Below, piece after piece: positions 26,631 through 64,000 of a stretch of DNA of 64,000 nucleotides; positions within the stretch are counted from its first letter, which is position 1; each line of letters starts with the position of its first letter. The stretch is from positions 302,151 to 366,150 of the forward strand of contig NW_025064897.1 in NCBI RefSeq assembly GCF_019112545.1. The letters are read 5' to 3'. This DNA is from Guyanagaster necrorhizus (Eukaryota > Basidiomycota > Agaricomycetes > Agaricales > Physalacriaceae). Both the position numbers and the translations under genes were made by a program. A model generated the notes under the pieces. The model had not been told where the DNA came from, ran no database searches, and saw only the letters and a program-made list of their open reading frames with translations.

Positions 26631-27130
26631 TGTTAGGAACATGCCAATTAAGTGGGTTTGAGTGTATGCACAGAGACTAGTAGAGTGTATGAGTATCAAT
26701 GAAGCTATTAGCAACATCACCCCTGAGTCAGAGTCTAAGAATTTGGATGGACAGAACAGAGTTTCATTAGAGAAGTGAAGAGGAGTATCCTTCAGAGTGG
26801 AATCTGATGGATGAGGTAAGAAAGAGTTGAAGTGAGTATGAAGTGTAGATGACTATCCAAGTTGATATTTAAACTGAGTATTTACAATGATTATACATGG
26901 CTTTATATACTAATGGTAGCTAATTCTGAGTCAGATTTCATTGAGTTCTAGTGTCAATATTCACTACTGAGTTCAGGATCTAGATATTACAATGTAAAAT
27001 ACAGATGTGAAATGATAATGGTGAAAATGAAATTAATAGGTAATGGGAAGTGGCTGGAGTCTGGTGGATTTTAGTGATTGAATCCATGGTTGGTTGAGAT
27101 GACATAGAAGCTGATGGCATATATGTAACA
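26631..27130 (-). repeat. 3' LTR of element II, 500 bp
   Basis: Plus-strand reading begins TGTTAGGAAC and ends ATATGTAACA, so the ends are the inverted TGTTA/TAACA pair. The mRNA-start motif has decayed to the TA form (AGTTTAAATAT in sense). Confidence 0.9.
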
Positions 27131-27269
27131 GTATCCCTCTGTTAGCATTCTTGCCCTCAAGAGCACAGATTCTAATGGCTGGTGGAGTCATATAGAAGAT
27201 TGTTAGTGGCTGTGGAAAATTTTGCAACTTAATCAAATACTATCACCATTGCCTAAACTTTTTGAAACT

Positions 27270-28466: not shown

Positions 28467-28643
28467 AGATTTTATACAAAATATATATAGAAAAAAATAT
28501 CAGATGTTGATAGTGGTAAAAAAAATGTAAATACAAGATTTTTGACTTTGAAAGTGTAAAAGAAGTGATTAAAATAGTAGTAATTAGTGGTTAAAATTGA
28601 AATAGTAAGGTGGAGCATCAGTGGTGTCTAGAGTAGTGTTGTA

Positions 28644-31600: not shown

Positions 31601-32470
31601 GAGTAGCTTTTTGGAGAGAGTATCACAGAAGACATCTGCAAAATCATGATACTCTACTGGTACTGATGAAAGGTCTGCTGGTTCCACAGATATAGCTTTG
31701 GCTCTAATTTTAGGCAAGGAAGACTGCAGTATAAACTGCTGAGTGTCTTCTTCTGCACTGATTTGGACAAATATAACAGCAGATATGATGGAGATCTTTA
31801 GATGTGCTTTCATATTAAAAGACTTTGAGAGAGGATAGAAATAGATGAGTTCACACAGAAATAGAGCCTACCTGCTACTCAGAAGGGATTTTAAATGGAG
31901 TGAAGCTTCCAGAGGTTGGACTGATAGAGTCTGGTGGGCACAGAAGTCCTGAAGTTGAGCTGGAAGGCTCTAAGAGGGGTGGACTGTTATCTTGTGGGCA
32001 TGAAAGTCCTTGGAATGTGGTGGAGGCTATGAAATTGGTTGAAGTGAGATTCTGATAGCTTGAGCAGAAAGTGATACTGTTCTCAGCCCAGTCAATCAGT
32101 GGATTGTAGCAGGAGAGCCAGTTGTATCCTAGGACAAGATTACAAGACAAATCCAGAGGAGTGATATAAAAGTCAATGAGGAAGATGTCTCTGGATGGGA
32201 AATAGATGGGGATAATTGTGATTTGAGATATATGGCTCTTGATAGAGCTATCAAATAATTGAAGTTGCATATTAGGGATGGCTTTAATAAAGATTTCATT
32301 GGCAGCTATATACTTAGTGTCAACAAAGTAGTAGCTAGAACCAGAATCAATATAAGGGCAAGAAAACACAGAATGATACAAGTTGAGAAACTATCAGGTT
32401 CTATGGTAGTTGGTAATTCTGCTGAAAGAGAGATGTGAAAGAAGTGATTGGAAAGGAATGTTGTATTGAG
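28644..32470 (-). pseudogene. Element II pol polyprotein, decayed
   Basis: Minus-strand order: protease (about 32381-31875, [19 protein letters not shown]), RT (about 31810-31000), RNase H (about 30960-30300), integrase (about 30250-29200, with FVNKSYHSNITVHPERDIAF) and chromodomain (about 28900-28700). The RT active site reads YLDN, not YLDD, near 31090, so it would be inactive even without the stops. A conserved Arg codon before LCIDY is CAA here and TGA in the other copies, as expected if an ancestral CGA decayed on either strand. Confidence 0.85.
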
Positions 32471-32515
32471 AGTGATGATCTCTGGTATGTGAATAGAGTT
32501 GCTTTCTAGTTTTCT

Positions 32516-33930
32516 GACTCTGCTGGAGCTGGCTCCACAGAAGCAGTGTCTACTTTAGCTGCACAACTCTTAGCAGTCACTGCAGCCTTTCATTTGTTGC
32601 AATTCTTGATCTTGTGTTTGGCTCCACAGAATATGCAGAGATTGTTCTGATATTGGTGGTCTTTTTCTTTCTAGATCAGATGGTCATCTTTGCCTAGCTT
32701 GTCAGCATAGGGCTTAGCAGTGGTGGATTTTGATGTAGAGCTGGAGTCTGAGGAATTAGATTTCTTAGATTTGAGATTGGAGGATTAGTTAGAGATCTTA
32801 TTGTCCTAGTTTTTATGGACAATTTTGGTCTTTCAGGTCCAGTAATGAGCATTGAGTTCTTGGATGAGGAGGCACATATCATGGAGGTTGCTGGGCTTCT
32901 CATAGTGAGCCATATCATTCTTGATGTGAGTACAGAGGCCATGGTAGAAGGCATGGCAGAGGGAGATGTCTCTATATCTGATTTGCAAGGCATACTGGTT
33001 GAATTGGACTATGTACTTCATGATTCACTCTCTATCACACATCTAAAGATGTTTTAATGCATTTTTAGCATCTCTGATGGTGTTGAAGAAGCCAAAGTTG
33101 CTATGAAGCTCATCCAAGAAAGCTGTATAAGAGAATTGCCAGACTAGTAGATTCTATGGATTAGAGTTAAGAATGTCTGATTTGAACCAGTTAAGTGCAG
33201 TGCCAGCCAGAAAGGAAATAGCATAGTTGATCTTGCTAGCATCTGTTGCAAATGTGGTAGATCTGTCATTGAAGTTTAACTGAAGGGAGACAATGAAAGC
33301 CTTCAGTTTGCAAAAGTTAGAGCCATCAAATGATTCTGGTTCCTTGACTTTGGTGTGAATAGTGGCTGGTTTAGGGTTATTGAGAGAAGTGGAGACTTCT
33401 CATAACAGGTTCATGAATTCTAGAAATATATCCTGCTGATTTGGATTGTTGCTTCCTGTGAGGCTATCAGAGCTGCCTAGGCCATTGAGACTGCTTGGTC
33501 CTTCTGGAAAAGGGTTTGGTGAGTTACCACCTAGTTTTCATCAGATGAGAGTATGAGTGGGGGTGTCTTCACCTCTGCCCTCTAAGTCTGGGCTGTCTGA
33601 ATTCCCATACATGTTGCTCAGGAATAAAGAGTCTAGAGAGTCAGTTCAGGCACTATACATCAGGCTGGCCTGTTGAGCTCTGTTGGTTGGGATGCTGGTG
33701 ACATAAAAAGGGTTAGAAGAATCATTGTAATTAGGTTGGTGGGCAGTGAAGCTAGAGTGATTGTAGGTTTCTCTATGAGAAGATTGTCCTCCACTGGAGG
33801 CCAATCTGAAAAGGCCTGGTTGTTTCTTTGAGGCAGAGGCTGAGATGTCTTCCATGAAAAACATGTTGTGATAGGTAGACTGGGTTTGTTCAGAGTCAGC
33901 TTCTGTGGATTAGGTAAATGTGATGGACAT
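32516..33930 (-). pseudogene. Element II gag, decayed
   Basis: Starts at the ATG 33930 (MSITFT) and ends TAG 32516. Includes the capsid-like segment and a C-terminal nucleocapsid knuckle (CIFCGAKHKIKNC) with three instead of four residues between the second Cys and His. Several stops interrupt it. Confidence 0.8.
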
Positions 33931-33956
33931 GATAAAAATTTTCAACTCAAGGGTTT

Positions 33957-33970
33957 GAGTTTAAATATAC
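33957..33970 (-). other. Primer-binding site of element II (self-priming type)
   Basis: Sense reading GTATATTTAAACTC directly after the 5' LTR. Its complement corresponds to the predicted mRNA start AGTTCAAATAT inside the LTR, with the central CG of the presumed original now TA. Confidence 0.6.
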
Positions 33971-34470
33971 TGTTAGGAATGTGCCAATTGAGTGGGTTTG
34001 AGTGCATGCACAAAGACCAGTGGAGTGCATGAGTGTCAACAAAGCTATTGGCAATATCATCTCTGAGTCAAGGCCCAAGAATTTGGATGGACAGAATAGA
34101 GTTCCATTGGAGAAGTGAAGAGGAATATCCTTTGGAGCAGAATCTGATAGATGAAGTAAGGAGGAGTTGAAGTGAGTACAAAATGTAGATAGCTATCTAA
34201 GTTGATATTTGAACTGAGTAGTTACAGTGATTATATATGGCTTTATATACTAATAGTAGCTGATTCTGAGTCAGGTTCCATTGGGTTCCAGTGTTAATAT
34301 TCACTATCAAGTTTGAGGTCTAGATATTACAATGTGAAATATAGATGTGAAATGATAATGGTGAAAATAAAATTAATAGGTAATAGAAAGTGGCTGGAGT
34401 CAAGTGGGTTTTGGTGATTGAATCCATGGTTGATTAGAATGACATGGAGGCCAGTAGCATGCACATAACA
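33971..34470 (-). repeat. 5' LTR of element II, 500 bp
   Basis: Plus-strand reading begins TGTTAGGAAT and ends GCACATAACA. It pairs with 26631-27130 and is followed by the right-hand GTATC duplication. Confidence 0.9.
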
Positions 34471-36986: not shown

Positions 36987-37484
36987 TGTTATGTGCATGC
37001 TGCCAGCCTCCATGTCACCTCAACCAATCATGGATTTAATCATGGAAACCCACCAGACTCCAGCTGCCCCCATTACCTATTAATTTCATTTTCACCATTA
37101 TCATTTCACATCTATATTTCACATTGTAATATCTAGACCCTGAACTTGGTAGCAAATATTGACATCAGAACCCAATGGAATCTGACTCAGAATTAGCTAC
37201 CATTAGTATATAAAGCTATGTATAACCATTGTAACTACTCAGTTCAAATATCAACTTGGATAGCCATCTACACTTTGTACTCACTTCAACTCCTTCTTTC
37301 TCATCTATCAGATTTCACTCTAAAGGATACTCCTCTTCACTTCTCTGATGGAACTCTGTTCTATCCATCCAAATCTTTGAGCTCTGACTCAAGAGTGATA
37401 TTGTCAATAGCTTCATTGATGCCTATACATGCTATCAGTCTCTGCATATGCATTCAAACCCACTCAATTGGCATATTTCTAACA
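36987..37484 (+). repeat. 5' LTR of element III, 498 bp
   Basis: TGTTATGTGC at the start, TTCTAACA at the end. TATATAAA at 37207-37214 and the presumed mRNA start AGTTCAAATAT at 37241-37251, 34 bases apart. Confidence 0.9.
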
Positions 37485-37498
37485 GTATATTTGAACTC
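37485..37498 (+). other. Primer-binding site of element III (self-priming type)
   Basis: GTATATTTGAACTC directly after the LTR. The 11 bases ATATTTGAACT are the exact complement of AGTTCAAATAT at 37241-37251. No tRNA-type TGG start is present. Confidence 0.7.
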
Positions 37499-37524
37499 AA
37501 ACCCTTGAGTCAAAAATTTTTATT

Positions 37525-38967
37525 ATGTCCACCACATTTACTCAACTCACAGAAACCAATCCTGAACAAACTCAGACTACCCATCACAACATGTTTTCTA
37601 TGGAAGACATCCCAGCCTCCACCTCAAAGAAACAATCAGGCCTTTTCAGATTGGCCTTCAGTAGAGGACAACCTTTCTGTAGAGAAATCTACAATCACTC
37701 TAGCTTCACTATCTGCCAATCTAATTACAACAATTCCTCTAACCCTTTTGATGCCACCAGCATCTCAACCAATAGAGTCTGATAGGCCAGCCTGATGTAT
37801 GGTGCCCAAACTGACCCTCCAATAGACCCTTTATCCTTAAGCAATATGTATGACAGCCCAGACTCAGAGAGCAGAGATGAAGACATCTCTACTCATACTC
37901 TCATCCAACAGAAATCAGGTGGTAATCTACCAAACTCTTTTTCAGAAGGGCCAGATGGACCAGGCAGACCAGATGGTTCCAATGGCCTAGACAGCTCTGA
38001 TGGCTTTGCAGGAAGCAACATTCCAAATCAGCAGGACATATTTCTAGAATTCATGAACCTGTTATAAGGAGTCTCTGCTTCTCTCAATAACCCTAAACCA
38101 GCCACTATTTGTACCAAAGTCAAGAAACCAAAACCATTTGATGGCTCTGACCTCTATAAACTGAAGGTCTTTATCATCTTCCTTCAGTTAAACTTCAATA
38201 ACAGACTTACTGCATTTGCAACAGATGCTAATAAGGTTAACTATGCTATTTTCTTCCTGGCCAGCACTGTGCTTAACTGGTTCAAACTAGACATTCTTAA
38301 TCCCAATCTGCAGAATCTACCAGTCTAGCAATTCTCCTATGTGGCTTTCTTAGATGAGCTTTGTAGCAACTTTGGCCCTTTTGATGCTATCAGAGATGCC
38401 AAAGATGCATTAGAACATCTTTAGATGTGTGATAGAGATTGGATCATAAAGTATATGGTCCAATTCAACCAGTATGCCTCATAAATTGGGTATGGAGATA
38501 ACTCCCTCCACTATGCCTTTTACTGTAGCCTCTGCACCTGTATCAAGAATGACATGGCACACCATGGGAAGCCAAACAACCTTCATGATATGCACTTCCT
38601 TGCCTAAGAACTTGATGCTCACTATTGGATCCAGAAGACTGAAATTGCTCATGAAAACTGAGACAATACAATCTTCAATCAATCCTCTAACCCCAAATCC
38701 AAGGAGTCCAACCTTTCTTCCTTGGACTCCAGCTTTACACTGAAATCTACCACCTCTAAGCCCTATGCTGACAAGCTAAGCAAAGATGGTTGTCTTACTC
38801 AGGAAGAAAAAGACTGCTGGTGCCAGAACAATCTTTGCATATTCTGTAGAGCCAAACACAAGATCAAGGATTGCAACAAATGAAAGGCTGCAGTGACTGC
38901 TAAGGGTTGTGCAGCTGAAGTAGATACTGCTTCTATGGAGCCAGCTCTAGCAGAGTCAGAAAACTAG
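37525..38967 (+). pseudogene. Element III gag, decayed
   Basis: From ATG 37525 (MSTTFTQLTE) to TAG 38967, in the same frame as element IV gag and with the same landmarks (MFSMEDIPAS near the start, PQPF/KPFDGSD type capsid start, LCIFCRAKHKIKDC knuckle at the end). Interrupted by at least six stops, mostly at former CGA, CAA or TGG codons. Confidence 0.8.
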
Positions 38968-38987
38968 AAAGCAACTCTATTCCCTCC

Positions 38988-41900
38988 ATGTGCATTCAGG
39001 GTTTCATTGACTCTATTCACATACCAGAGATCATCACCCTCAATGCAACATTCCTTTCCAATCACTTCTTTCATATCTCTCTTTCAGCAGAATTACCAAC
39101 TACCATGGAATCTGATAGTTTCTCAACTTGTATCATTCTGTGTTTTCTTGCCTTTATTGATTCTGGTTCTAGCTACTACTTTGTTGACACTAAGTATGTA
39201 GCTGCCAATGAAATCTCTATTAAAGCCATCCCTAGTATGCAACTTCAATTATTTAATGGCTCTATTGAGAGCCATATATCTCAAATCACAATTATCCCCA
39301 TCTATTTCCTATTCAGAGACACCTTTCTCATTGGCTTCTATATCACTTCTCTGGATTTGTCTTGTAATCTTGTCCTAGGATACAACTGGCTCTCCTGCTA
39401 CAATCCACTGATTGACTGGGCTGAGAACAGTATTACTTTCTGCTCAAGCTATCAGAATCTCACTCTAACCAATTTTATAGCCTCCACTACATTCTAGAGA
39501 CTTTCATGCATACAGAACAACAGTCTACCCCTCTCTGAGCCCTCCAGCTCAACTCTGGGACTTCTGTGCCCACCAGACTCTATCAGTCCAACTTCTGAGG
39601 CTTCACTCTATTCTAAGTCCACTTTAGGTAGCTGGCAGACTCCATTCCTATATGAACCCATCTATTCCTATCCTCTCTCAGAGTCTTTTACTATGAAAGC
39701 ACACCTAAAGATCTCCATCATATCTGCTGCCACATTTGTCTAAGCTAGTGCAGAAGAAAACACTCAGCAGTTCACACTGCAGCTTTTTTTGTTTAAAATT
39801 GAAGCTAAAGCTGCATCCACAGAACCAGCAGACCTTTTATCAGTGCCAGTAGAGTACTATAATTTTGCAGATATCTTCAGTGATACTCTCTCTAAAAAGC
39901 TACCTGAACACAGGCTGTACAACCTCAAAATCAACCTTGAGAAAGAAACATCTTCACTGCTTGGACCTATTTATTCTCTTTTGGAATCTGAACTCAAGGC
40001 CCTATGAGAGTTTATTGATGATAACCTATGCAATGGGTTCATTATTCTATCTTGCTCTCTGCATGAGGCTTCAGTTCTATTTGTCAAGAAGAAGACTGGT
40101 GAACTCTGATTTTGTATTGACTACTATAGCCTAAACAAAATCTCCAAGAAGGATTGCTATCCTCTTCCCCTCATTTCTGATCTCTTTGACTCTGCTTGCT
40201 CTGCATGTATCTATACTAAGCTTAACCAATGACATGCCTACTATCTCATGTGCATAGCCAAAGGAGATGAATGGAAAACAGCCTTTTGAACCCATTATAG
40301 TTCCTTCAAATGATATGTCATGCCTTTTGGCATCACAAATGCTCTGGCAGCATTCCAATGATTTGTGAACAATATATTCTCTGACATGCTTGATATATTA
40401 GTAGTAATCTACCTTGATAACATCCTCATATATTCTGACAACCCAGAAGATCACCAGAAACATGTTTGAGAGGTCCTACACAGGCTTAGAGCTAATAGAC
40501 TCTATTGCAAAGGTTCTAAATGCAAATTTAACTGGGATTCTGTAGAATACCTAGGCTATATCCTATTACCTGAAGGACTTTACATGTCTGAAGAAAAAGT
40601 CAAGGCCATTGTTGACTGGCTGATGCCACAAAAAGTCAAGAACATCCAATCATTTCTTGGCTTTGCCAACTTCTACTGTCACTTTATATATGAATATAGT
40701 GATATCATTCTTCCTATTATATAACTTATCTGCAAGGAAACTCCATGGAAATTTGATAATAAATACTTGGTAATCTTCAACAAGTTGAAACAGGCTTTTA
40801 CACATGCCTCCATCCTTATCCACTAGGTCCCTGATTGAAAGATAGTGATGGAAACTGACACCTCCAATTATACAATTGCAGCTATTCTCTCTATCTATCA
40901 TGAAATTCACCTCATTGCCTTCCACTTCTGGAGCCTCCATAATACTGAACTTAACTATGATACTCATGACAAAGAGCTTCTAGCCGTTTTTAAAGTCTTT
41001 AAACATTGGTGGCACTATCTTGAAGACTCTGCAGACTCCATTGATATTGTAACAGACTATAAGAACTTTGGATACTTCACTACCACTAAGATTCTAATCT
41101 GCTGACAGGTCTGCTAATCTGAATACCTATCTCAGTTCAACTTAATAATTCAGTTCTACTCTGGAAAACTTGGTGGAAAACTGGATGTGCTCACCAGATG
41201 ATGGGACATCTATTTTAAAGAGAGAGATAGTCAATATGCCTAAGTCAACTCTCATAATTTCTGATCTGTGTTCATCCAAGGACAACTTTCTGCATCACTC
41301 TGCATAATCTATCTCAAGAGCCCTATTCTATGGGCTAGTGCTATCATGAATATTGACAAACTTCACACTGATATCAAACAAGCATAATTCTCTGACCCTA
41401 CATCCTCTGATAGTCTCCACTAGGCCAAAGTCACTTCTGAATCCTCTCTCTCTCAGTAATCTATTAATGAATCCAACATCCTTTGGTTTGAAGGCTGCAT
41501 CTATATCCTGGACTCTGATGATCTCTGTCTCCATATACTTCAGAACAATTACAACTATATCTTGGTAGGCCACTTTGGTCAAAACTAAACATTAGAGCTA
41601 GTCTGATAGGACTACACCTAGTCAAAGATATGTGAATATGTTTGACACTATGTTAAGTTCTGCACAGTTTATGGGTGCAATAAGACACCTAGACACTACT
41701 CCTATAGATTACTCAAACCTCTACTGGTTCCTGAATAGCTATGAGATTCCATTTCCATAGATTTCATTGAACAACTACTGGACTCCAATAGATTTACCAT
41801 CATCTTAGTAGTCATAAACTAAGCTAGCAAGCAAGCCATCTTCATCCCCACTCATGACACCATTAACTCTACAGAGCTTGCCCAACTTTTTCTTATCTAT

Positions 41901-42802
41901 ATGTTCTCCAAACATGAGGCACTTAGTCATATTATCTCAGATCACAGCTCTAAATTTGTTTCCCAATTTACTCATGCCTTAGCTATAGCTCTTGACATGA
42001 AACTCCATCTTACTTCTGGTTATCATTCAGAGGCTGACAGACAAACTGAATGGGCAAACCAAACTCTGGAACAGTACAATTGGGACACTTTTCTACCCAT
42101 TACCAAGTTCATCTACAACAATGCTTCTAATATGTCCACCAGAATCTCCTCATTTTTTGCTAACAAGAGTTACCACTCCAACATCACTGTTCATCCTGAA
42201 AGAGATATCACTTTGCAGTTAATCTTGATGAGCTCTATCAAATACTGAAAGATGAAATTTCTAAAGCTCAGTCTTATTACAAGGTCCAAGCAGACAAGCA
42301 TTGGATTTTGGTGCCTTCATTCACAGTGGGCAACAAGGTCTACCTCAGTGCCAAATATATCAAAACCACCTGTTCAACCAGAAAATTCTCAGAGAAATAT
42401 CTTGGTCTCTTCAAAATTATAGTCTAATCTAGTTCTCACTCCTTCACTCTGAGGCTTCCACTGGATCTCTGGTCCATTCACCTGGTCTTTCATGTGTCAC
42501 AATTGGAACCTATAAAAGAAAACACCATTTCTAACTGAATCCAACCACTGCCACCTCCAGTTGAAGTCAATAGAGAAGAACATTTCAAAATAGCCCAAAT
42601 TCTTGACTCTAAACTGAACTGCTGGTTCTGCTGCCCACTGCTGTACAAGATCCAGTGGCTAGGCTATAAAGATACTAATGAAGAGTTCACTTGGTTACTG
42701 ACCTTCAAGTTCTTCACCAATGAATTTATTGAAGAATTCCACTATTGATACCCAGGCAAACCAAAATCCTTATCCAAAGTCACTCAATCATTCCATTCTT
42801 GA
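38988..42802 (+). pseudogene. Element III pol polyprotein, decayed
   Basis: Protease ([19 protein letters not shown] near 39160), RT near 39790-40700, RNase H near 40750-41200, integrase near 41500-42250 and chromodomain near 42590-42790, ending TGA 42800-42802. The RT active site reads YLDN near 40410. A short deletion in the integrase removes about ten residues between LEQY and NWDTFLP. Stops are numerous but the frame shifts little. Confidence 0.85.
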
Positions 42803-42978
42803 TACAATGCAACTCTGGATGCCACTGATGCCCCCACCTTACTAGTTCAATTTTAACCACTAATTACTACCATTCCAATCATCTCTTTCACACTTTCAAA
42901 GTCAAAATCTTGTATTTACATTTTTTTTTCACTATCAATATCTGACATTTTTTTCTATATACATTTCATACAAAATTT

Positions 42979-44314
42979 TTACAGAAAAGCGAAACCTGCT
43001 AGGCCTACACCAGAATCCAAACTCTTCTCTTGCTTCTTCAACTCCTCTATATTCTCATCCAGCCTCTTCAACATCACCTTCTGAATATCTTCCACCTCCT
43101 AATCTCTCTTATTTTTAAAAATCAGCTGGGCCTTCTTCCAGGCCTTCACTTTAGATTCTAAAAACAGCTCTGAGAGAGATGACATGTCATTAGAACTATA
43201 GTCATCCTGAAGACTCACTATCATACTACAGATATCTGCCAGCTCTTCTGTCAACTCATCTATATGATGCATCAACTTGCAAATTAATCTTGGGACTTGG
43301 TGAAGGCCAGCAGAGACCTCTGCACTGCTGATCATCTTACTTGTGGTGACACTCTTGTTAAACAAACAAGCAGTTTTCTTAACCTTGCAGCAAGCACAAA
43401 TTCACCCTCGACTGGCATCTTCAGTTACTAGTCACATGTAGCACTATGTGCTATCTTGACAATAGTGCACACAATTTCCTGAAAGCAAAAGCTAAGTCAA
43501 ACCATGCAAGAAAACTAAGATACTTACTTTCACCATCCAACAACTCTTCACTCTCCACTAGCTCCATCACTTTCAACTTTGCCCACTTTTTGAGACTAGT
43601 GACCACCTCTATCTCACTGCCATCCACTATGCTTCTCAATCTGAACTTGTGTTTATGGCCCTTCTCCACTAGACCCACTGCTCTTCTCTTCCCCTCTTGC
43701 ACTCTCTTTCTTCTCTCTAAGGTCTTCTCAGATTCTTCTGACTCATCATCCTCTTTAGTCTCCTTGTGTGGCTCATCATCGGACTCTGGAGGTGTGCAGC
43801 TAGTCACCTTCTTGAAGTGAAGATTAGGGCCAGAACTAAACCATTCTGCTAGCACTTGATGCAGATAAAAATCAATGGCTGATATGAGGGTCATCTACAA
43901 CTCATCCTCCATAATCATCTCCTCCTGCTCTACCTCTAGAGCCTCAGCTCTTGCCATGGTCTCTATGGCCTCCCTCTCTTCAGCCTCCCTCTGAGCTGCC
44001 TCTCTCAATGTCTTCTCCACCTCTTTTACCCACCTCTCTACTGCCTGCCAGACCTCCTCCCTCTTCTTCTTCAATTCCTCTTGCTGCTTCTTTCTCTGTG
44101 CCTTCCAGGCCACATAGTCCACTCAGACCTTCTCCTCTCTCTCTCACTCTCTGTTCTACTCCAAGTGGACTTCTATGGCCTCTGCATAGTCTTCCTCTAT
44201 GGTCTGCCATTCCAGACAAAATAATTCCTTGGCCTCTTCATAGCCATTAGGAGTGGGTTCTCTCACCAAAGGCTCAGGAGTATATGAGCAATGATATGCA
44301 GTGGGAGGCAACAT
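42979..44314 (-). pseudogene. Antisense gene of family 2, copy in element III
   Basis: Opposite to gag-pol, from an ATG at 44314 (MLPPTAYHCSYTPEPLV), about 130 bases from the 3' LTR, to TAA at 42979-42981. Pol ends tail-to-tail at 42802. The N-terminal coiled coil (MDYVAWKAQRKKQQEELKKK; 44122-43895), the acidic/basic middle (43894-43530) and the C-terminal coiled coil (43365-43099) are separated by only a few stops. The intron is preserved: GTAAGTATCTTAG just after GATGGTGAAA and a TTTGCTTTCAG acceptor near 43480, followed by the Cys-rich exon. Better preserved than the pol of the same element. Confidence 0.78.
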
Positions 44315-44444
44315 AGTTAGGGTGATAGTGATAGTATCTGACTAAGTTGTAAAAAATTCTCATGGCCATCAATAATCTTCTATGTGGCCCCATCAGCCAT
44401 TGGGATCTGCACTCTTGAGGGCAAGAATGCTAATGTGGGAATAC

Positions 44445-44942
44445 TGTTACATGCATGCTGCCAGCCTCTGTGTCACCTCAACTAACCATAGATTCAATTA
44501 TGGAAACCCACCAGACTCTGGCTGCTCTCATTACCTATTAATTTTATTTTCAACATTATCATTTCACATTCATATTTCACATTGTAATATCTGGGCTCTG
44601 AACTTGGTAGCAAATATTGACATTGGAATCCAATAGAACCTGACTCAGAATTAGCTACCATTAGTATATAAAGCCATGTATAACCATTGTAACTACTCAG
44701 TTTGAATATCAACTTGGATAGCCATTTACACTTCATACTCACTTCAACTCCTTCTTCCTTGTCCATTGGATTCTGCTCTGAAGGATACTTCTCTTCACTT
44801 TTCTGATGGAACTCCATTCCATCCATCCAAATCCTTAGGCCCTAACTTAAGAATGATGTTGCTAATAGCTTCATTGATGCCCATGCATGCTGCTGGTCTC
44901 TGCATGTGCACCCAAACCCACTCAATTAGCATGTTTCTAACA
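44445..44942 (+). repeat. 3' LTR of element III, 498 bp
   Basis: TGTTACATGC to TTTCTAACA. The mRNA-start motif here is the TG form AGTTTGAATAT (44699-44709), whereas the 5' LTR has the CA form. Confidence 0.9.
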
Positions 44943-46404: not shown

Positions 46405-47206
46405 TTATCCCCTCCTTAAGACCATCATCCCAATGGCTTAATTTAGAGATAATTCATAGTTATGGATTGCATCATTGGTGTCCATTAGTTTCTCATTGAT
46501 CCATTGGTTAGATTCTAGGCTATAACCTTTCTAGCTGATAAGGTAATCCACTATTGTTGTTGTTCTATCCCCTTTGGCCTTGACTTTTCACAGTTTGTGG
46601 TTTAACACTTGATTGATTTTGTAGTGTTTCTCATCATCGATCAGGTCTGATGGGAGCAGTGGTGGTTTCTCTTGATTGGGAAAGACAAGCATGATATAGA
46701 GTGAAAGCAGTGTTTTATTGAATATATTGTGGATTTTTCAGATGATGGGGAGGCAAAGTTTATAAGCACTTGCACTGATCTTTTCAATTATGAGGAAGAG
46801 GCCTGTTCATTTATCAGTGAGTTGCTGTTTTGGTCTCTGTAAGTGAAGGTTTGTGGTATCTAGCCAGACTTTATCATTGATAGAGTACTCATGGGCTGGT
46901 CAGCAATGTTTGTCATACTGTGCCTTCATCATGATGGCTGCTTTTTCCAGTGCTGTTTTGATCTCTGTATGGATTTTGGCCATCATGGTGGCAAAGTCCA
47001 TTGATACTGGTGTGGTCACACAGTATCATTCTGTTTGAGCAATGTTTGGATGTCATCCATGATTGATAAAGAATGGAGTTTTCCCTGGTGCCAAATGGAC
47101 TCAGTTATTGTGTTGAAAAGTGGTAAGAGCCAGCCATTCAACCTAATTGTCTTGTCTATAGTTAATGAAGAGTCAAAGATATTTTTTGACTTCTTGATTA
47201 ACCCAT

Positions 47207-49035
47207 TGACATGCCCTCTCCTTGTTCAGGCATGTAAAATTGTGAAAATTGTGAATACATGGGCCACATTCCAGGCCAGTAAGCATGTAACAGAAAATAG
47301 GACTAGAGCACACAGAAACCTCACTATCATAATGATAAACTGAAGTAACAATGAGCAGAGTGCATGGCCTAGTAACAGACTAATACCAGAGGGGTTAGGC
47401 TGCATGTGAGATCCCAGCACTTGGCCCTAAGTGCACCAATACTATTACAAGAGGACATACTAAAAATAAAAAGACTATGATTGAAATATGATTGGCAATT
47501 CTGATCACATTGATCAAAGATGCACAGCCATTGATGCACTGATGAGACATGCCTTAGAACAGAGAACTGAGACCCAAAGAAAGGTATCTGAGTAAATGGG
47601 TACCAAATAGAGAGATAGCATGATAACAACAAGCTAACAAGTAGAGAAATATTACCCCAGGAATGAATAGCACAGATACTGTTCTGAGCCTTATGTGCAT
47701 ACATATGGTGCCTTAGTGTGCATAACACAGTGAGGGACTCTGCATTGTACCAAGAAGTGGCACCTTTAGTGAGTCAGATGGAATGACTGGTTGGACACAG
47801 GAAAGCAGAACATAGCCATTGTGGCTGGCTCCTAGCATGAGAAATAACTCTGGGAGTCTGAGACAGTTTACTGCTGTTAGAAATATCACCAGGAAGATAA
47901 GAAAGTGAGTAGACCTGGCAAGGCCAGCTAGCTGATGTCAGCTAGTAAAGGAACAGCAGGCACAGTCATTGTCCAGAAGAGAATAAGCATGGCAACTGCA
48001 ACATGTGCATGAATAATACCAGCAGGATCTAGCATAGAGTCCCACACTTTGAGGATACCATAGTAGGATTGTATTAGTAAGTATCCTAGTAGAGTATTTA
48101 AATATGGCATTGTATGGCTGGAGAGGCAAGTTTCTGTCCCCCACAGTTGCAGTGTATTGGGCACAGAAAGCCTTGCACTCTAGCTCTGGGTTTGTGTTTA
48201 TAACTTTGGGTGAGAGAATAAACCTATTATTGAATACTCTTGAGAGAGCTGTGAGAACTAAGTGAGGCATCAAAGCTCATAAAGGACTTAAGCCTAGTTT
48301 GATAAGAAGTTTTTTGGATTGCACTCTAACCTGAGAATAAAAGAGTGGTGTCTGAAGGGCATCATCTTGAGTTTTTGAGGTATTTGTGATGTGCAGTGCT
48401 ACAGGTGGCAGAGGTTCAAACCCTTTGGCTTGATTAGTGTGTGCTGTTGTGTTATTTCTACAGATTGGCAGAGGTTCAAACCCTCTGGTCTGTCAGATGG
48501 AGTTTTATTGTGTTTGTGTCTCTGGATCACATAGGTTTGAATCCTGTGGGTCTACAATCAGTTTGGAAACTTGTGAACAGGGATCTGTGCTTTTGGTCAC
48601 TTGTGGACATGTTTGTAATTAGTTTTTGGCTTAGAGCACAAAGCTTTGAGTTGTGTATTGTGTGTGTTAGGGAATTGAGTTGATCTGAGCTGTGCTTGGA
48701 ACCATTTGAGAGTTTTGAAGGAGTGTTTCAATGTATTATATCGAGTTGCAGTACCCCTTGCTTTGAGGTCTGGCAACACTAGTTGCCACCTCTTGTTTTG
48801 ATAAAATGAAAAGCTTTGAGACTTAGAAAGACCTCGAACTGTCATAAGTGCACTATTGCTATTTGCACACTGTGATCTCATTAAAGAAGACAATTATATT
48901 TGTTGATTGCTACTTTTATTGCATTGTAATCCCTCTATGAACTAAGAGATTTGTGTGTATATTGGTGTGAGTGTGGTCAGTGGAAAATGCTCTGCTGTCT
49001 CCATTCTCATATTGTGCATGCTTGGAACCTCTTCA
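47207..49035 (+). repeat. R3 repeat, 1829 bp, TG...CA ends, inserted in the family 1 integrase
   Basis: Starts TGACATGCCC and ends ACCTCTTCA, flanked by CCAT on both sides (47203-47206 and 49036-49039). Excising it with one CCAT restores the integrase frame, which fixes both ends. No coding capacity is visible. The TG/CA ends and short duplication suggest a solo LTR or a non-autonomous LTR element, but its length is high for a solo LTR. A second copy starts at 63250. Contains a 60-bp degenerate tandem repeat at about 48400-48580. Confidence 0.8.
48401..48580 (+). repeat. 60-bp degenerate tandem repeat inside R3
   Basis: GAGGTTCAAACCC appears at 48411 and again exactly 60 bases on at 48471; a variant AGGTTTGAATCC follows 60 bases later near 48533. 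Units resemble each other only in part. Confidence 0.55.
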
Positions 49036-55661: not shown

Positions 55662-56153
55662 TGTTACGTGCATGCCACTGGCCTCTGTGTCACCTCAACC
55701 AACTGCGAATCCAATCACACTACCCACCAGACTCCGACCGCTTCCCATTACCTACTAATTTCATTTCACCGGTATCATTTCACATCCGTATTTCACATTG
55801 TAATATCTAGACCCCGAACTTGGTAATGAATACCGACACCAGAACCCAATGGAACCCGACTCAGAATTAGCTACCATTAGTATATAAAGCCATGTACATC
55901 ATCGTAGCTACTCAGTTCAAATATCAACTTGGATAAGCCATCTACACTTCATACTCACCCCTCTCTATCTCATCCATCGGATTCCGCTCTGAAGGATACT
56001 CCTGTTCACTTCTCTGACAGAACTCTGTTCTATCCATCCAGATCCTTAGGCTCCAACTCAAGGGTGATGTTGCCAATAGCTTCGTCAATGCCCACGCACT
56101 CCATTGGACTCTGCACGTGCACTCAAGTCCACTCGATTGGCACGTTCCTAACA
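55662..56153 (+). repeat. 5' LTR of element IV, 492 bp
   Basis: TGTTACGTGC to GTTCCTAACA. TATATAAAGC at 55881-55890 and the presumed mRNA start AGTTCAAATAT at 55914-55924, 33 bases apart. Confidence 0.9.
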
Positions 56154-56167
56154 GTATATTCAAACTC
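56154..56167 (+). other. Primer-binding site of element IV (self-priming type)
   Basis: GTATATTCAAACTC. It differs from the element III site only at two bases (CA for TG), as expected if an original CG decayed on opposite strands. Confidence 0.6.
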
Positions 56168-56192: not shown

Positions 56193-57605
56193 ATGTCCAC
56201 CACATTTATCGAACCCACAGAAACCGATCTCGAACAAAGGCAGCCCACCCATCCAAACATGTTTTCCATGGAAGACATTCCAGCCTCTGCCTCAAAGGAA
56301 CAACCAGGCCTGTTCGGATCAGCCTCCAGTGGGGGACAACCTTCCCGTAGGAAAACCTACAATCACTCTAGCTTCACTGCCCGCTAACCTAATTACGACG
56401 ATTCCCCTAACTCTTTCAACACTACCAGCATTCTAACCAACAGGGCCCAATGGGCCAGCCTGATGTATGGCATCTGAACCGACCCTCCAATAGACCCCCT
56501 ATTCCTGGGCAACAACCATGGGAATCCAGACAGCCTAGACTCAGAGGGCAGAGATGAAGACACCCCTACTCATACTCTCATCTGATGGGAACCAGCTGGC
56601 AATCCACCAAACCCTTTCCCAGGTGGTCCCAATGGTCCAAGCAGCGCCGATGGCCCCACAGGAAGTAACAATCCAAACCAGCAAGACATGTTCCTAGAAT
56701 TCATGAACCTGTTACAAGGAGTCTCCACCTCCCTCAACAATCCTAAACCAGCCACTGTCCATACCAAGGTCAAGGAACCAGAACCATTTGATGGCTCTGA
56801 CCCTCGCAAACTGAAGGCTTTCATTGTCTCCCTTCAGTTGAACTTCAATGACAGACCTACCGTATTTGCAACGGATGCTAACAAAGTTAACTACGCCATT
56901 TCATTCCTGGCCGGCACCACGCTCAACTGGTTCAAACCAGACATTCTTAACCCCAATCCGCGGAATCCACCAGCCTGGCAATTCTCCTATGCAGCCTTTT
57001 TAGATGAGCTTCGTAGCAACTTCGGCCCCTTTGATGCTATTGGAGATGCTGAAGATGCATTAGAACACCTTCAGATGCACAATGGTGATCAGATCATGAA
57101 GTATATGGTCCAATTCAACCAGTATGCTTTGCAAATTGGGTATGGAGATAACTCCCTCTGCCACACCTTTTACCATGGCCTCTGCACCTGTATCAAGGAT
57201 GACATGGCACACCATGGGAAGCCAAACAACCTTCGTGATATGCACTTCCTTGCCCAAGAACTTGATGCTCACTACTGGACCTGGAAGACTGAAATTGCCC
57301 ATGAAAACCAGGACAATAAATTCCCCAACCCCAAATCCAAGGGGTCTAACACTTCTTCCTCAGACTCCAGCTCCACACCAAAATCTACCGCCCCTAAGCC
57401 CTATGCTGACAAACTAGGCAAAGATGGCTGTCTTACTCAGGAAGAAAAAGACCACTGGCATCAGAACAACCTTTGCATGTTCTGTGGAGCCAAACACAAG
57501 ACCGAGGACTGCAACAAGTGGAAGGCAGCAGCCTCTACCAAGGGGTGTGCAGCAGAGGTCGACACTGCTCTCATGGAATCGGCTCCGACAGAGTCGGAAA
57601 ACTAG
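56193..57605 (+). pseudogene. Element IV gag, nearly intact
   Basis: One frame from ATG 56193 (MSTTFIEPTETDLEQ) to TAG 57603-57605, about 470 codons. It is interrupted only by a few stops: TAA after SSFTAR at 56385, a TGA near 56475 and another near 56583. The segment 56688-57605 is open for 305 codons and contains the capsid (EPEPFDGSDPRKLKAFIVSL, QFNQYALQIGYGDNSLCHTF) and the nucleocapsid knuckle CMFCGAKHKTEDC near 57475. The knuckle has three residues between the second Cys and the His in all three copies, instead of the usual four. Gag would form the particle and package the RNA. Three point reversions would give an open gag, so it decayed recently. Confidence 0.88.
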
Positions 57606-60600
57606 GAAGCAACCCTGTTCCCTCTGTGCGAGTTCAGGGTTGCATCGACTATATTCGCACACTGGAGGTCATCACTCTCAATGCAACATCCTTTCCAATC
57701 ACTCCTTCCACATTCCTCTCTCAGCAGAATTACCGACTACTACAGAACCTGATGGTTCTCCAACTTGTATCATCCTACATTTTCTTGCCCTTATTGATTC
57801 TGGCTCTAGCCACTGCTTTGTTGACACTAAGTATGTAGCTGCCAATGAAATCCCCATTAAAACCATCCCTAGTGTGCAACTTCGATTATTTGATGGCTCC
57901 ATTGGGAGCCATATATCTCAAATCACAACCATCCCCATCTGTTTCCCATCCGGAGACACCTTCCCCATCGACTTCTATGTCACTCCTCTGGATTCGTCTT
58001 GCAATCTTGTCCTAGGATACAACTGGCTCTCCTGCTACAATCCACTGATTGACTGGGCTGAGAACAGTATCATTTTCCGCTCAAGCCACCAGGATCCCAC
58101 TCCAATCAATTCCATGGCCTCCACCACATCTCAGAGACTTTCGTGCCCACAGGACAACAGTCCACCCCTCTCTGAGCCTTCCAGCTCAATTCTGGGACTT
58201 CCGTGCCCACCAGACTCCACCAGTCCAACTCCCGGGGCTTCACCCCATTCCAAATCAACTCCGGGTAACCGGCAGACTCTGTTCCCATATGAACCCATCT
58301 ACTCCTATCCTCCCTCAGAGTCTTTTACTACGAAAGCACATCCAAAGATCTCCATCATATCCACTGCCACATTTGTCTGAGCCAGTGCAGAAGAAGGTGC
58401 TCAGCAGTTCACACTGCAGCCTTCCTTGCCTAATATTGGAGCCAAAGCTGCATCTGCGGAACCAGCAGATCTTTCACCAGTGCCAGTAAAGTACCACGAT
58501 TTTGCAGACATCTTCAGCAATACCCTCTCTGAAAAACTACCTGAACACAGGCCATACGACCTCAAAATCAACCTCGAGGAAGGAATCTCTCTACCACTTG
58601 GACTCATTTATTCTCTCTCAGAATCTGAACTCAAGGCCCTATGAGAGTTTATTGATGATAATCTGCACAATGGGTTCATTACTCCATCCCACTCTCCACA
58701 CAGGGCTCAAGTTCTATTTGTCAAGAAAAAGACCAGTGAACTCTGACTTTGCATTGACTACCATAGCCTAAACAAAATCTTCAAGAAGGATCGCTACTCT
58801 CTTCCCCTCATTTCTGATCTCCTCAACTCTGCCTGCTCCACACACATCTACACCAAGCTCGACCTTTGGCATGCCTACCATTTTGTTTGCATAGCTAAGG
58901 GGGATGAATGGAAAACAGCCTTCTGGACCCATTACAGTTCCTTCGAATGGCACGTCATGCCTTTTGGCCTCACAAATGCTCCAGCAGCATTCCAACGATT
59001 TGTGAATGATATATTCTCTAACATGCTCGACATATCAGTAGTGGTCTACCTCGATGACATCCTCATATATTCTGACAACCCAGAAGATCACCAGAAACAT
59101 GTTTGTGAGGTCCTATATAGGCTTAGAGCTAATGGACTCTATTGCAAAGGATCCAAATGCAAATTCAACCAGGATTCCATGGAATATCTAGACTACATCC
59201 TATCACCTGAAGGACTTTGCATGTCTGAAGAAAAAGTCAAGGCCATTGTCGACTGGCCGGTGCCGCAAAAAGTCAAGGACATCCAATCTTTTCTTGGCTT
59301 TGCCAACTTCTACCGTCGCTTCATACACGAATATAGTGATATCGTCCTCTCCTTTACATGACTCACCCGCAAGGGAACCCCATGGAAATTTGATGACAAA
59401 TGCTTGGCCACCTTCAATGAGTTGAAACAGGCCTTTACACACGCCCCCATCCTTACCCACTGGGTCCCCGATCGAAAGATAGTGGTGGAAACCAATGCCT
59501 CCAACTATGCAATTGCAGCTATCCTCTCCATCTATCTTGAAGATGGCAAAATTCACCTCATCGCTTTCCGCTCCTGGAGCCTCCACAATGCTGAACTCAA
59601 CTATGACACCCATGACAAAGAGCTTCTAGCCATTTTTGAAGCCTTTAAATATTGGCAGCACTACCTTGAAGGCTCTGCAGACTCCATCGATGTCATAACA
59701 GACCACAAGAACCTTGAATACTTCGCCACCACTAAAATTCTAACCCACCGACAGATCTGCTGGTCCAAATACCTATCCCAGTTCAACCTAGTAATCTGGT
59801 TCTACCCTGGAAAACTTGGTGGGAAACCGGATGTGCTCACTAGATGATGGGATGTCTACCCTAAAGAGGGGGATAGCCAATATGCCCAAATCAACCCGCA
59901 CAATTTCCAACCCGTGTTCACCCAAGAACAACTCTCTGTATCACTCCAAGCAACCTATCTCGAAGGCTCCACCCTACAGGCTAGTGCTATCATGGATATC
60001 AACAAACTCCACACCGATATCAGACAAGCACAATCCTCTGATGCTATATCCTCTGACGGCCTCCGCCAGACCAAGGCTGCTTCCGAATCCTCTCCCTCTC
60101 AATGGTCTATTGACGAATCCAACATCCTTCGCTTCGAAGGCTGCATCCACATCCTGGACTCCGATGATCTCCATCTTCATATACTACAGAACAATCATGA
60201 CCACATCTTGGCAGGTCACTTTGGTCAAAACTGGACATTAGAACTAGTCCAGCAGAACTACACCTGGCCAAAGATGCGTGAATATGTCTGACACTATATT
60301 AAGTCCTGCACAGTTTGTGGATGCAACAAGGCACTCAGACACCGCCCCTATGGGTTACTGAAACCTCTGCCAGTTCCCGAATGGCCATGGGATTCCATTT
60401 CCATAGACTTCATTGAACAACTACCAGACTCCAATGGATTCACCACCATCTTAGTAGTCATAGACTGAGCTAGCAAGCAAGCCATCTTCATTCTCACTCA
60501 TAGCATTATTAACTCTGTGGAGCTCATCCAACTTTTCTTTATTCATGTATTCTCCAAACATGGGGTATCCAGTCACATCACATCTGACCATGGCTCTGAA

Positions 60601-61497
60601 TTTGTCTCCCAATTTACTCATACCTTAGCTGTGACCCTTGACATGGAGCTCCACCTTATCTCTAGTTACCATCCAGAGGCCGACGGCCAAACTGAATGAG
60701 CAAACCAAACTCTGGAATAATACATCCACATCTACTGCTCCTACCAGCAGGACAACTGAGACACTCTCTTACCCATTGCTGAATTTGCCTACAATAATGC
60801 CCCTAACGCATCCACCAGAATTTTCCCATTCTTCGCTAACAAGGGTTACCACCCCAACATCACTGTTCACTCTGAAAGGGATATTGCCTCCGCCCGGGCT
60901 CAAGATTTTGCAGTCAACCTTGATGAACTCCATCAATTACTGAAGGATGAAATTTCTGAAGCCCAGTCTCGCTATAAGACTCAAGCAGACAAGCACTGGA
61001 TTCCAGCACCTCCATTCACAGTGGGGGACAAGGTCTACCTCAGCTCCAAACATATCAAAACCACCTGCCCAACCAGAAAATTCTCGGAGAAATACCTTGA
61101 TCCTTTCAAAATCATAGCCCAACCTGGTACCCACTCCTTTACCCTGAGGCTTCTGCCAGACCTCCAGTCCATTCACCCCGTCTTCCATGTGTCACAATTG
61201 GAACCCATAGAAGAAAACACCATTTCTAACCAAATCCAACCACCACTGCCTCCAATCGAAGTTGACAGAGAAGAACATTTCGAAATAGCCCAAATCCTCG
61301 ACTCTAAACTGGACCACCAGTTCCGCTGCCCACTGCTGTACAAAATCCAGTGGCTAGGATATGAAGGTACCAACAAAGAATTTGCTTGGTTACCGGCCTC
61401 CGAGTTCTCCACCGATGAATTTATTGAAGAATTCCACCACCGATACCCAGACAAACCAGAACCCTTGTCCAAAGTTATTCAAACATCCCATTTTTAA
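57424..61497 (+). pseudogene. Element IV pol polyprotein, single frame with about ten nonsense codons
   Basis: Pol lies in the +1 frame relative to gag and overlaps it by about 180 bases. Order: retroviral-type protease (ALIDSGSSHCFVDTKY near 57790), RT (58450-59300, with MPFGLTNAPAAFQRF and [17 protein letters not shown]), RNase H (59400-59850, VETNASNYAIAAIL, where the first catalytic Asp reads Asn), the integrase zinc finger (60180-60340, HILAGHF, CTVCGCNK), the integrase core (60380-60760, DFIEQLPDSNGF, TSDHGSEFVSQF, HPEADGQTE) and a chromodomain (61300-61440, YKIQWLGYEGTNKEFAWLPA). Stops stand at 58378, 58642, 58744, 59359, 59845, 60289, 60466, 60697, 60718 and 60757. Most are TGA where relatives have Arg, that is former CGA. 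No frameshift was found. The chromodomain would guide integration to heterochromatin, which fits the nest. Confidence 0.88.
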
Positions 61498-61676
61498 TAC
61501 AGTGCTACTCTAGATACCACCATTGCCCCACCTTACCATTTCAATTCTAACCACTAATTACCACCGATCGATCACCCTTTCTACACTTTCAAAGTCAAAA
61601 AAAAATTTTGCATTTATATTTTTATCCACCACCAACATCCGATGCCCTTTTCTATATACATTTTGTATAAAATATT

Positions 61677-63000
61677 TTACAAAGAAGCAGAATCCGATGG
61701 ACCCACACCGGAACCTGAACTCTCCCCCCACTCCTTCAACTCCTCTATATCCTCATCCAGCCCCTTCAACATCACCTCCCAAAGATCCTCCACCTCCTGA
61801 TCCCTCTCATCCTTGAAAATCAGTCGGGCCTTCTTCCAGGCCTCCACCTTGGACTCCAAAAACAGCTCCGAAGGAGATGACATATCATCGGAACCGTAGT
61901 CATCTTGAAGACCTGCCACAGTATCGCGAACATCTGCCACCTCATCTGCCAACTCATCCACGCGACGCATCAACTTGCATATCAATTTTGAAAGTTGGTG
62001 GAGACTGGTGGAGACCTCCACACTGCTGATCACCTCACTCATGGTGACGCCCTTGTTGAACAAACAGGTGGTTTTCTTGACCTTACAGTGAGAGCAAGTC
62101 CACTCTCGACTGGCGCCTTCAGTTACCAGACTTGCATAACACCAGGCACCATCTTGACAACAGCACACACAACTCCCTAAAAACAAAAAAGCTAAGTTGA
62201 GCCATGAAAGAAAACCAAGACACTTACTTTCATCATCCAACAATTTCTTGCCCCCCGCCGGTCCTGCTACTTCTAACTTTGCCCACTTTTTGGGGCTAAC
62301 AACCACCTCTGTCCCACTGCCATCTACTACACTCCTCGACCTGAACTTGCATTTATGGCCTTTCTCCACTGGATCCGCTGCTCTTCTCTTCTCCTCCTGC
62401 ACCCTCTTCCTCCTCTCTAGAGTCCCCTTGGATTCCTCAGACTCATCATCCCTCTCAGTCCCCTTGTCCTGTTCATCATTGGATTCCAGAGACGTAGGGT
62501 GAGTCACCTTCTTGAAGTGAAGACCAGGGCCAGGACCAAACCATTCCGCCAACACCTGATGCAGCTGAAAATCAACAGCCTCCACAGGGGTCATCTGCAA
62601 TCCATCCTTCATAACCATCCCCTCCAGCTCTACCTCCTCAGCCTCAGCCCTCGCCACTGCCTCCACTGCCTCCCTCTCCTCAGCTTCCCTCTGAGCCGCC
62701 CCTTTCAATGCCTCCTCTGCCTCCTTAGCCTGCCTCTCCATGGCCTGCCGAACCTCCTCCCTCTTCCTCTCCAACTCCTCCTTCTGCTCCTTTTTTCATG
62801 CTTCCTGGGCCACATGGTCCACCCAGACCCTCTCCTCCTGCTCCTGCTCCCCTTGCCATTCCAAATGGCTCTCCACGGCCTCTGCATATTCCTCCTCCGC
62901 AGTTCGCCATTCCAGACGAAACAATTCCTTGGCCTCTTCAGGGCCATCGGAGGTGGATCCCGTCACCAAAGGCTCGGGAGTGCGTGAGTGATGACATAGA
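61677..63000 (-). CDS. Antisense, intron-containing gene carried by family 2 (copy in element IV)
   Basis: On the strand opposite to gag-pol, between pol (ends 61497) and the 3' LTR (63122). The frame can be read from about 63000 (TPEPLVTGSTSDGPEEAKEL) to TAA 61677-61679, with one TGA near 62795. Downstream of that, 62774-61677 is completely open for 365 codons even through the intron. A canonical intron lies at 62177-62227 (GTAAGTG donor, TTTTTAG acceptor, 51 bases, branch-like CTCAAC) and keeps frame. The product has a Glu/Lys/Arg coiled coil, an acidic stretch, a basic patch (KCKFRSRS), a Cys group (CVCCCQDGAWC, CSHCKVKKTTCLFNK), then a heptad-rich C-terminus (HQLSKLICKLMRRVDELADE). The Cys group recalls Zn-binding clusters of unnamed agaricomycete proteins, but the spacing is not a standard Zn2Cys6. 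No ATG is left at the start in this copy (MLPPT in element III). Function unknown; perhaps a captured host gene. Confidence 0.7.
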
Positions 63001-63121: not shown

Positions 63122-63249
63122 TGTTACATGCATGCCACTGGCCTCCGTGTCACCTCAACCAACCGCGAATCCAATCATACTACCCACTGGACTCCGACCG
63201 CTTCCCATTACCTACTAATTTCATTTCACCGATATCATTTCACATCCGT
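63122..63249 (+). repeat. 3' LTR of element IV, first 128 bases
   Basis: TGTTACATGC onward, matching 55662-55789 until CATTTCACATCCG, where R3 starts. Confidence 0.88.
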
Positions 63250-64000
63250 TGACACGCCCTCTCCTCGTTCAGGCATGTAAAATTGTGAAAATTGCGAATA
63301 CATGGGCTGCATTCCAGGCCAGTAAGCATGTAACAGAAAATAGGACTAGAGCACACAGAAACCTCGCTATCATAATGATAAACTGGAGTAACAATAAGCA
63401 GAGTGCATGGCCTAGTAACAGACTAATACCAGAGGGGTTAGGCTGCATGTGAGGTCCCAGCACTTGGCCCTAAATACACTAATACTATTACAAGAGAACA
63501 TGCTAAAAATAAAAAGACTATAATCGAAATATGATCAGCAAGTCTGATCACATTGATCAAAGATGCACAGCCATTGATGTGCTGATGGGACATGCCTTTA
63601 GAACAGAGAACTGAGACCCAAAGAAAGGTATCTGAGTAAATGGGTACCGAACGGAGAGATAGCATGATGACAACAAGCTAACAAGTAGAGGAATATTACC
63701 CCAGGAATGAATAGCACGGATACTGCCCTGAACCTTGCGTGCATACATATGGTGCCTTAGCGCACATAACACAGCGAGGGACTCCGCATCGTACCAAGAA
63801 GCGGCACCTTTAGTGAGTCAGATGGAATGACTGGTTGGACACAGGAAAGCAGAACATAGCCATTGTGGCTGGCTCTTGGCATAAGAAATAGCTCCGGGGG
63901 TCTGGGACAGTTTACTGCTGTCAGAAATGTCACCGGGGAGATAAGAAAGCGAGTAGACCTGGCGAGGCCAGCTAGCCGATGTCAGCTAGTAAAGGAACAG
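63250..64000 (+). repeat. R3 repeat, second copy, runs past the window edge
   Basis: Begins TGACACGCCC and matches 47207-47957 closely to the end of the window. This copy keeps CG where the first has TG or CA (for example GACACGCC versus GACATGCC), so it is younger or less exposed to decay. Confidence 0.85.

Follow-up and report, generated by a model that had tools for sequence, protein, structure and literature searches.

The stretch of DNA analyzed here (the window) comprises 64,000 nucleotides of Guyanagaster necrorhizus contig NW_025064897.1 and belongs to an assembly of 53.3 Mb in 109 contigs, in which all own-genome searches were performed. The window contains an LTR retrotransposon, element IV, in which a two-exon gene on the reverse strand occupies the region from pol to the 3' LTR and faces pol (Table 1). 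With its LTRs, its gag and pol genes and the order reverse transcriptase (RT), RNase H and integrase, element IV is a Ty3/Gypsy retrotransposon. An earlier reading of the sequence alone had called it a chromovirus. The integrase C-terminus has a Tf2-1-type SH3 domain that scores above its cut-off, but the Pfam Chromo match stays below the cut-off of 25.1 bits, scoring 20.9 bits for the window copy and 17.1 for a further one.

Table 1. Features of element IV and of its antisense gene, in window positions
Feature	Position	Strand	Remarks
5' LTR, element IV	55662..56160	+	3' boundary approximate
gag, element IV	56586..57605	+	Retrotrans_gag and Ty3_capsid matches
pol, element IV	58747..61497	+	RT, RNase H, integrase zinc-binding domain, Tf2-1-type SH3 domain, weak chromodomain; interrupted by stops
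AT-rich gap	61498..61676		separates the convergent pol and antisense stops
Antisense gene	61677..62997	-	two exons; window copy broken; about 428 codons in relatives with the start region
Exon 1	62228..62997	-	ATG at 62997-62995, long charged region, basic motif
In-frame stop of exon 1, window copy	62796..62798	-	
Basic motif, general form SPKK-x-AKLE	62271..62297	-	in exon 1
Intron	62177..62227	-	phase 1; GTAAGT, T-rich tract, TAG; branch-like site upstream of the T-rich tract
Exon 2	61677..62176	-	Cys cluster and heptad region; stop codon at 61679-61677
Cys cluster C-x2-C-x6-C-x14-C-x2-C-x6-C	62064..62171	-	
Heptad region, read as coiled coil	61899..61994	-	one copy analyzed
3' LTR remnant, element IV	63122..63249	+	128 nt, 95% identical to 5' LTR

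The position between pol and the 3' LTR was thus as described in the sequence-only reading, except that the 3' LTR is merely a remnant. A second repeat begins at 63246 and abuts the cut LTR (63246-64000 is 92.6% identical to 47203-47956), so that element IV is either interrupted or lies beside a nested insertion. The 5' LTR contains a TATATA motif at about 55881-55886, near position 220 of full LTRs, which reads alike on both strands; the truncated 3' LTR stops short of this site. A scan of the element against Rfam at gathering scores gave no matches. Elsewhere in the window, 7445-8776 and 18145-19476 are inverted copies of each other (98.7% identical), each with an open frame of 340 amino acids of membrane-like appearance.

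The antisense gene is repeated throughout the genome. A DNA search, in which the best 40 of 269 candidates were scored, returned 39 copies at 86-91% identity in addition to that of the window, and a protein search gave at least 101 matches (95 of 548 candidates scored). We read 61 fetched copies (L002-L062) together with the window's own. Two further copies lie within the window, at 36987-44445 on the forward strand and at about 27001-34470 on the reverse strand; the latter is rearranged within the antisense region and was excluded from the tallies of 55 and 63 copies used below. The convergent placement beside integrase was constant: an integrase C-terminus was found in convergent orientation within 900 nt at all 45 loci with a readable flank (45 of 62, the window's own included). 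Three of the remaining 17 loci were masked on the integrase side and 14 had been read without sufficient flank; a convergent integrase match adjoins nine of these 14 in a pol search with the best 150 of 2039 candidates scored. Eight further copies, picked because they had no scored pol match alongside, all proved to have integrase there when read with flank. No copy of the antisense gene outside the element was therefore seen among the 45 testable loci and the eight additional ones. The distance from the end of the pol match to the end of the antisense match had a median of 192 nt (range 20-561) at the matched loci.

Another Gypsy family, which is abundant and whose chromodomain scores above the cut-off, is represented at 24769-25482 of the window (best 150 of 2317 candidates scored). 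An antisense gene of the present kind was not seen beyond integrase in the six copies of this family that were read. In L063 and L064, two of the six, a short antisense frame rich in Cys matches exon 2 weakly (E 0.13 and 0.05). It is located at about 340-620 of the stretch in pol-sense orientation, and the match may be due to chance.

The window copy of the antisense gene is broken. The long frame noticed in the sequence-only reading is present, at 372 open codons (61677-62795) rather than 365. The ATG is in another frame than the main antisense frame owing to a loss of 17 nt immediately behind it, and this loss together with the in-frame stop of exon 1 identifies the window copy as a pseudogene. 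The same 17-nt deletion was found in 17 of the 55 copies that could be aligned over both exons, scattered over the copy tree and in each case with loss of the start frame. In the 38 copies without it, the joined exons have a median length of 428 codons, and an ATG is at the expected place in 31. When the joined exons are read from 62989 onwards, they are free of stops in 13 of the 55 copies, some of which lack the start frame. The deletion (window 62980-62997) sits between short direct repeats and recurs on many branches of the copy tree; the site may be a slippage hotspot during reverse transcription.

The 51-nt intron GTAAGT...TTTTTAG at 62227-62177 is present as proposed. In the window copy its length is a multiple of three and the frame runs through it, so that an open frame does not by itself indicate splicing. 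Evidence for splicing is provided by the other copies. Among 63 copies, the donor GTAAGT and the final AG are each present in 60, one of the three others looking like an alignment slip, and a branch-site pattern in its loose form occurs in 61. The lengths range from 48 to 56 nt, with 48 nt in 3 copies, 49 in 31, 51 in 14, 52 in 7, 53 in 3, 54 in 2, 55 in 1 and 56 in 2. In 44 of the 63 copies the length is not a multiple of three, and their exons therefore share a frame only if the intron is spliced. The effect is evident in the 38 such copies among the 55 aligned over both exons: joined exons contain a median of 2.5 stops and are stop-free in eight copies, as compared to a median of 9.5 stops and no stop-free copy when the sequence is read through. 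Donor, acceptor and branch-like site are kept while the interior of the intron changes.

These GT...AG ends, the branch-like site and a length that is free of the reading frame are the features of a spliceosomal intron. Exact matches to a pattern spanning the intron and both of its flanks were found at 90 places genome-wide and at none in the control. Precisely intronless junctions (at most two mismatches), which were sought genome-wide as direct proof of splicing, numbered three as compared to three in the control, and hence showed no excess. An intron in a gene on the retrotransposon's own RNA normally cannot be retained, whereas an antisense gene can keep one. Read in the sense of the element, the present intron is CT...AC; since this precludes splicing of the sense RNA at that site, the intron can survive, in agreement with the sequence-only reading of a coding gene antisense to gag-pol with a spliceosomal-type intron. 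The element has thus retained the intron, and in most copies the two exons are in a common frame only after its removal, which would be performed by the host.

Coding constraint was analyzed by comparing element IV with the two other window copies, leaving out codons with CpG. The dN/dS of the antisense frame was 0.25 (95% bootstrap 0.18-0.35) and 0.24 (0.17-0.34) in the two comparisons, similar to the values of gag (0.29 and 0.23) and pol (0.30 and 0.27). Values were 0.56-0.92 in the two remaining frames of the antisense strand and 0.39-0.98 in the three sense frames. The sequence-only reading had named divergence equal to that of non-coding sequence as counting against a gene; such divergence was not observed at the codon level, the antisense frame being at about 0.25 and the five remaining frames at 0.39-0.98. 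Because dN/dS is lowered by the mutation spectrum alone, base changes were permuted among like bases as a control. Observed dN/dS divided by the permuted mean was 0.57 and 0.54 in the antisense frame; pol gave 0.70 and 0.63 and gag 0.70 and 0.50. Taken separately, exon 1 (0.58 and 0.59) and exon 2 (0.56 and 0.46) were similar to the whole antisense frame. None of 300 shuffles reached the antisense dN/dS in either comparison, and the minimum of a separate run of 500 shuffles was 0.30 as compared to the observed 0.25. Stop counts in the antisense frame were no lower than in the permuted sequences (49 and 87 of 300 shuffles reached them).

Constraint at the protein level between the older copies is thus comparable to that on gag and pol, which argues that the gene serves the element. 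For the comparison of element IV with the copy at 36987-44445 we also noted that dS is higher in the antisense gene (0.72, 61680-62989) than in pol (0.41, 58411-61494).

The predicted protein begins with the highly charged exon 1, which carries a loose form of the SPKK-x-AKLE-type motif in 51 of the 55 copies; this motif presumably resembles a nuclear localisation signal. The Cys cluster and the coiled-coil-like heptads reported from the sequence alone were confirmed. The six Cys columns are individually conserved in 49-54 of the 55 copies, and the heptad region follows directly behind the cluster, with all a/d positions occupied by L, I, V, M or A in 28-residue windows (one copy). A profile search identified a single outside relative, P0001, as the one match among 2106 candidates (132 amino acids, 40% identity, E 7.9e-21). 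It is encoded on a 1183-base contig of the source 'lgn' and keeps all five Cys within the part it covers. A genome search with P0001 (150 of 254 candidates scored) gave matches of just 33-45% identity, and P0001 is therefore not derived from the present assembly. Other searches were negative: a single-sequence protein search with 371 amino acids found nothing at E 0.001 among 8000 scored candidates, a region search from a longer copy nothing at E 0.1 among 224 candidates, and none of 59 pattern matches in an IMG/VR scan was confirmed. Sequence searches of Pfam, NCBIfam and PDB gave no family or domain support (best PDB match E 0.21); the Zn2Cys6 domain PF00172 matched below the Pfam cut-off in 3 of 13 members (best E 8.4).

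Based on these results, we consider it reasonably probable that the antisense gene is an accessory gene owned by the element, whose protein acts as a nuclear regulator of the element. In complete copies, transcription probably starts from a promoter in the 3' LTR and proceeds backward into the element, the host spliceosome would remove the intron of 48-56 nt, and the antisense RNA would end in the AT-rich gap facing pol. The product of about 428 amino acids would consist of a charged N-terminal part, the basic nuclear-type motif, a Zn2Cys6-like and putatively zinc-binding Cys cluster, and then the coiled coil through which it may dimerise. Such a protein is most likely a nuclear dimer that binds nucleic acid, including DNA, or chromatin, and it may regulate the element's own transcription or its silencing in trans. 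The preservation of this additional antisense gene as a coding sequence suggests an element that produces its own regulator.

A narrower version of this proposal concerns the direction of the regulation. In columns of CpG sites, CG is kept in 30% of cells, as compared to 63% for GC in GpC control columns, and such a heavy loss of CpG suggests methylation of these copies by the host. An anti-silencing role, as for VANC, is therefore a fair alternative to repression. We regard it as possible, although rather unlikely, that the nuclear Cys-cluster/coiled-coil protein acts on the LTRs of the element against host CpG methylation, as an anti-silencing factor in a convergent layout resembling that of HBZ.

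The accessory gene could also be a relic that served the ancestors of the element, with selection gone in the youngest amplified subfamilies. This is a doubtful explanation. Private changes were compared with shared ones in the 55 copies, on the premise that private changes are near neutral and shared ones filtered; CpG columns were left out. The ratio of nonsynonymous to synonymous changes (N:S) in the whole antisense frame decreased from 2.18 for private changes to 1.52 for changes shared by at least three copies (p 0.03). The decrease was from 2.77 to 1.51 in exon 1 (p 0.007), and exon 2 gave no signal (1.53 and 1.56, p 0.58). With CpG columns included, the p value for the whole frame was 0.08, and a tree-based version, in which shared changes must fit the tree and few remain, was not significant (p 0.10). 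The integrase C-terminus of 36 copies displayed a clear signal, with an N:S of 2.41 for private changes, 0.97 for those shared by at least three copies and 0.25 for those shared by at least eight. Recent constraint on the antisense gene thus looks weaker than on pol, which counts against the preferred reading of an element-owned accessory gene and is as expected of a relic, and the recurrent 17-nt loss behind the ATG points in the same direction; the 17 copies that have lost the start frame in this way indicate that the gene is dispensable copy by copy. However, the joined frame is still stop-free in the 13 copies mentioned above, and the test is blurred by recurrent transitions, which are evident from the CpG columns and from the stop codons, since 132 of these 136 differ by a single transition from a sense codon found in another copy.

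The sequence-only reading had proposed instead that a host-type gene was captured in reverse and is carried as passive cargo, coding only by origin. Our results do not support this proposal, which we judge improbable. It would account for an intron like that of an ordinary nuclear gene, and for the lack of such an antisense gene beyond integrase in the six copies of the other Gypsy family. Passive cargo is at variance with a dN/dS between copies that equals those of gag and pol, and with the confinement of the gene to the element at the 45 testable loci and eight more. Nor was a host homologue found among the scored matches of the two genome searches (95 of 548 and 150 of 254 candidates), although a distant host gene could be missed because these searches score only the best candidates.

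It is quite improbable that the RNA rather than the protein matters, as a spliced non-coding antisense transcript that dampens gag-pol. The convergent placement and the weak amino-acid constraint in young copies would fit such a transcript, and regulation by antisense RNA is raised in the cited text of PMC7264820. However, dN/dS is low in the antisense frame. The ratio to the permuted mean was above 1 in four of the five other frames; the fifth is the sense frame that has its third codon positions in common with the antisense frame (0.69 and 0.64), and it has 18 and 19 stop-bearing codons as compared to 9 and 9 in the antisense frame. The insertions and deletions of 40 copies also follow the reading frame. 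Every exon gap class found in at least two copies is a multiple of three, and three of the 11 exon gap classes are not, each being restricted to one copy, whereas intron and flank gaps are unrestricted (lengths such as 1, 2, 4, 5, 7 and 17). Frame-shifting exon gaps occur in at least 3 of the 14 more divergent copies, which counts against the accessory gene. The conservation of a relative at 40% protein identity likewise argues against a function of the RNA alone. Finally, the view that there is no intron and that the 51 nt encode a hydrophobic stretch of the protein, which draws on the length being divisible by three in 17 of the 55 copies, the window copy included, is hardly credible given the 38 copies with other lengths, the stops met on reading through, and the splice signals kept around a changing interior.

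The proposed element-owned nuclear regulator can be compared with several known systems. In plant Ty3/Gypsy elements, antisense additional ORFs between pol and the 3' LTR are termed aORF-3R and include gene23 of Grande and those of RIRE2 and Retand (PMC7264820, PMC11963269). They share place, orientation and presence in many copies with the fungal gene, as described in the cited passages; they differ in belonging to plant lineages, Retand being a non-chromovirus, and in having no Pfam match in common with it. Specifically, the TRP28 domain (PF04195) of the Retand-lineage aORF-3R had no Pfam match in the antisense protein. According to the same passages, the Grande protein is nuclear, DNA binding is suggested for the TRP28 domain of Retand, and the role of the plant aORFs is stated to be unknown (PMC7264820, PMC11963269). 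The words 'intron' and 'fungi' are absent from the main texts of both papers, and 'antisense' occurs 0 times in the main texts of the fungal-element surveys PMC3248453 and PMC2864245. No antisense intron-bearing gene in fungal Gypsy elements was found among the open-licence papers searched.

The HBZ/APH genes of HTLV also lie antisense near the 3' LTR. The cited part of PMC3185765 describes an HBZ antisense transcript that starts in the 3' LTR and is spliced, and a protein with a dimerisation zipper that affects viral transcription; splicing of the fungal gene is predicted from its signals. HBZ is a bZIP protein rather than a Cys-cluster protein, its initiation codon lies inside the LTR exon and its source is a primate retrovirus; we claim no homology. 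The ORF3s of bdelloid rotifer LTR retrotransposons are similar in being extra captured genes in separate transcriptional units with spliced messages; their protein types differ from that of the antisense gene and include env, DEDDy, GDSL, CC and TM, and the cited part of the source does not describe them as antisense (PMC5408684). VANC of the VANDAL transposons is likewise an accessory protein encoded by an element and directed against silencing, and is compared here as a possible mode of action only; VANDALs are plant DNA transposons (PMC10398659, in the part cited).

Among protein families, the fungal Zn2Cys6 domain (GAL4-type, PF00172) has the same order of six Cys, C-x2-C-x6-C ... C-x2-C-x6-C, followed by a heptad region. 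The loop of Zn2Cys6 domains usually has 5-12 residues. The antisense protein fits in Cys order and departs in its longer loop of 14 residues, in having its basic residues in the second half and in a Pfam match at chance level.

The role of antisense accessory genes of LTR elements is treated as an open question in the cited plant literature (PMC7264820, PMC11963269). The intron of the fungal gene is a clean computational mark of a separately transcribed, host-spliced gene carried by an element, and it offers a simple RNA test in the form of junction reads from the antisense strand. In combination with a constraint between older copies that resembles that on gag and pol, it makes the fungal gene a good test case for this role. 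Antisense accessory genes of LTR elements are already known; what is new here is a gene with its own intron that encodes a Cys-cluster protein in a fungal Gypsy element.
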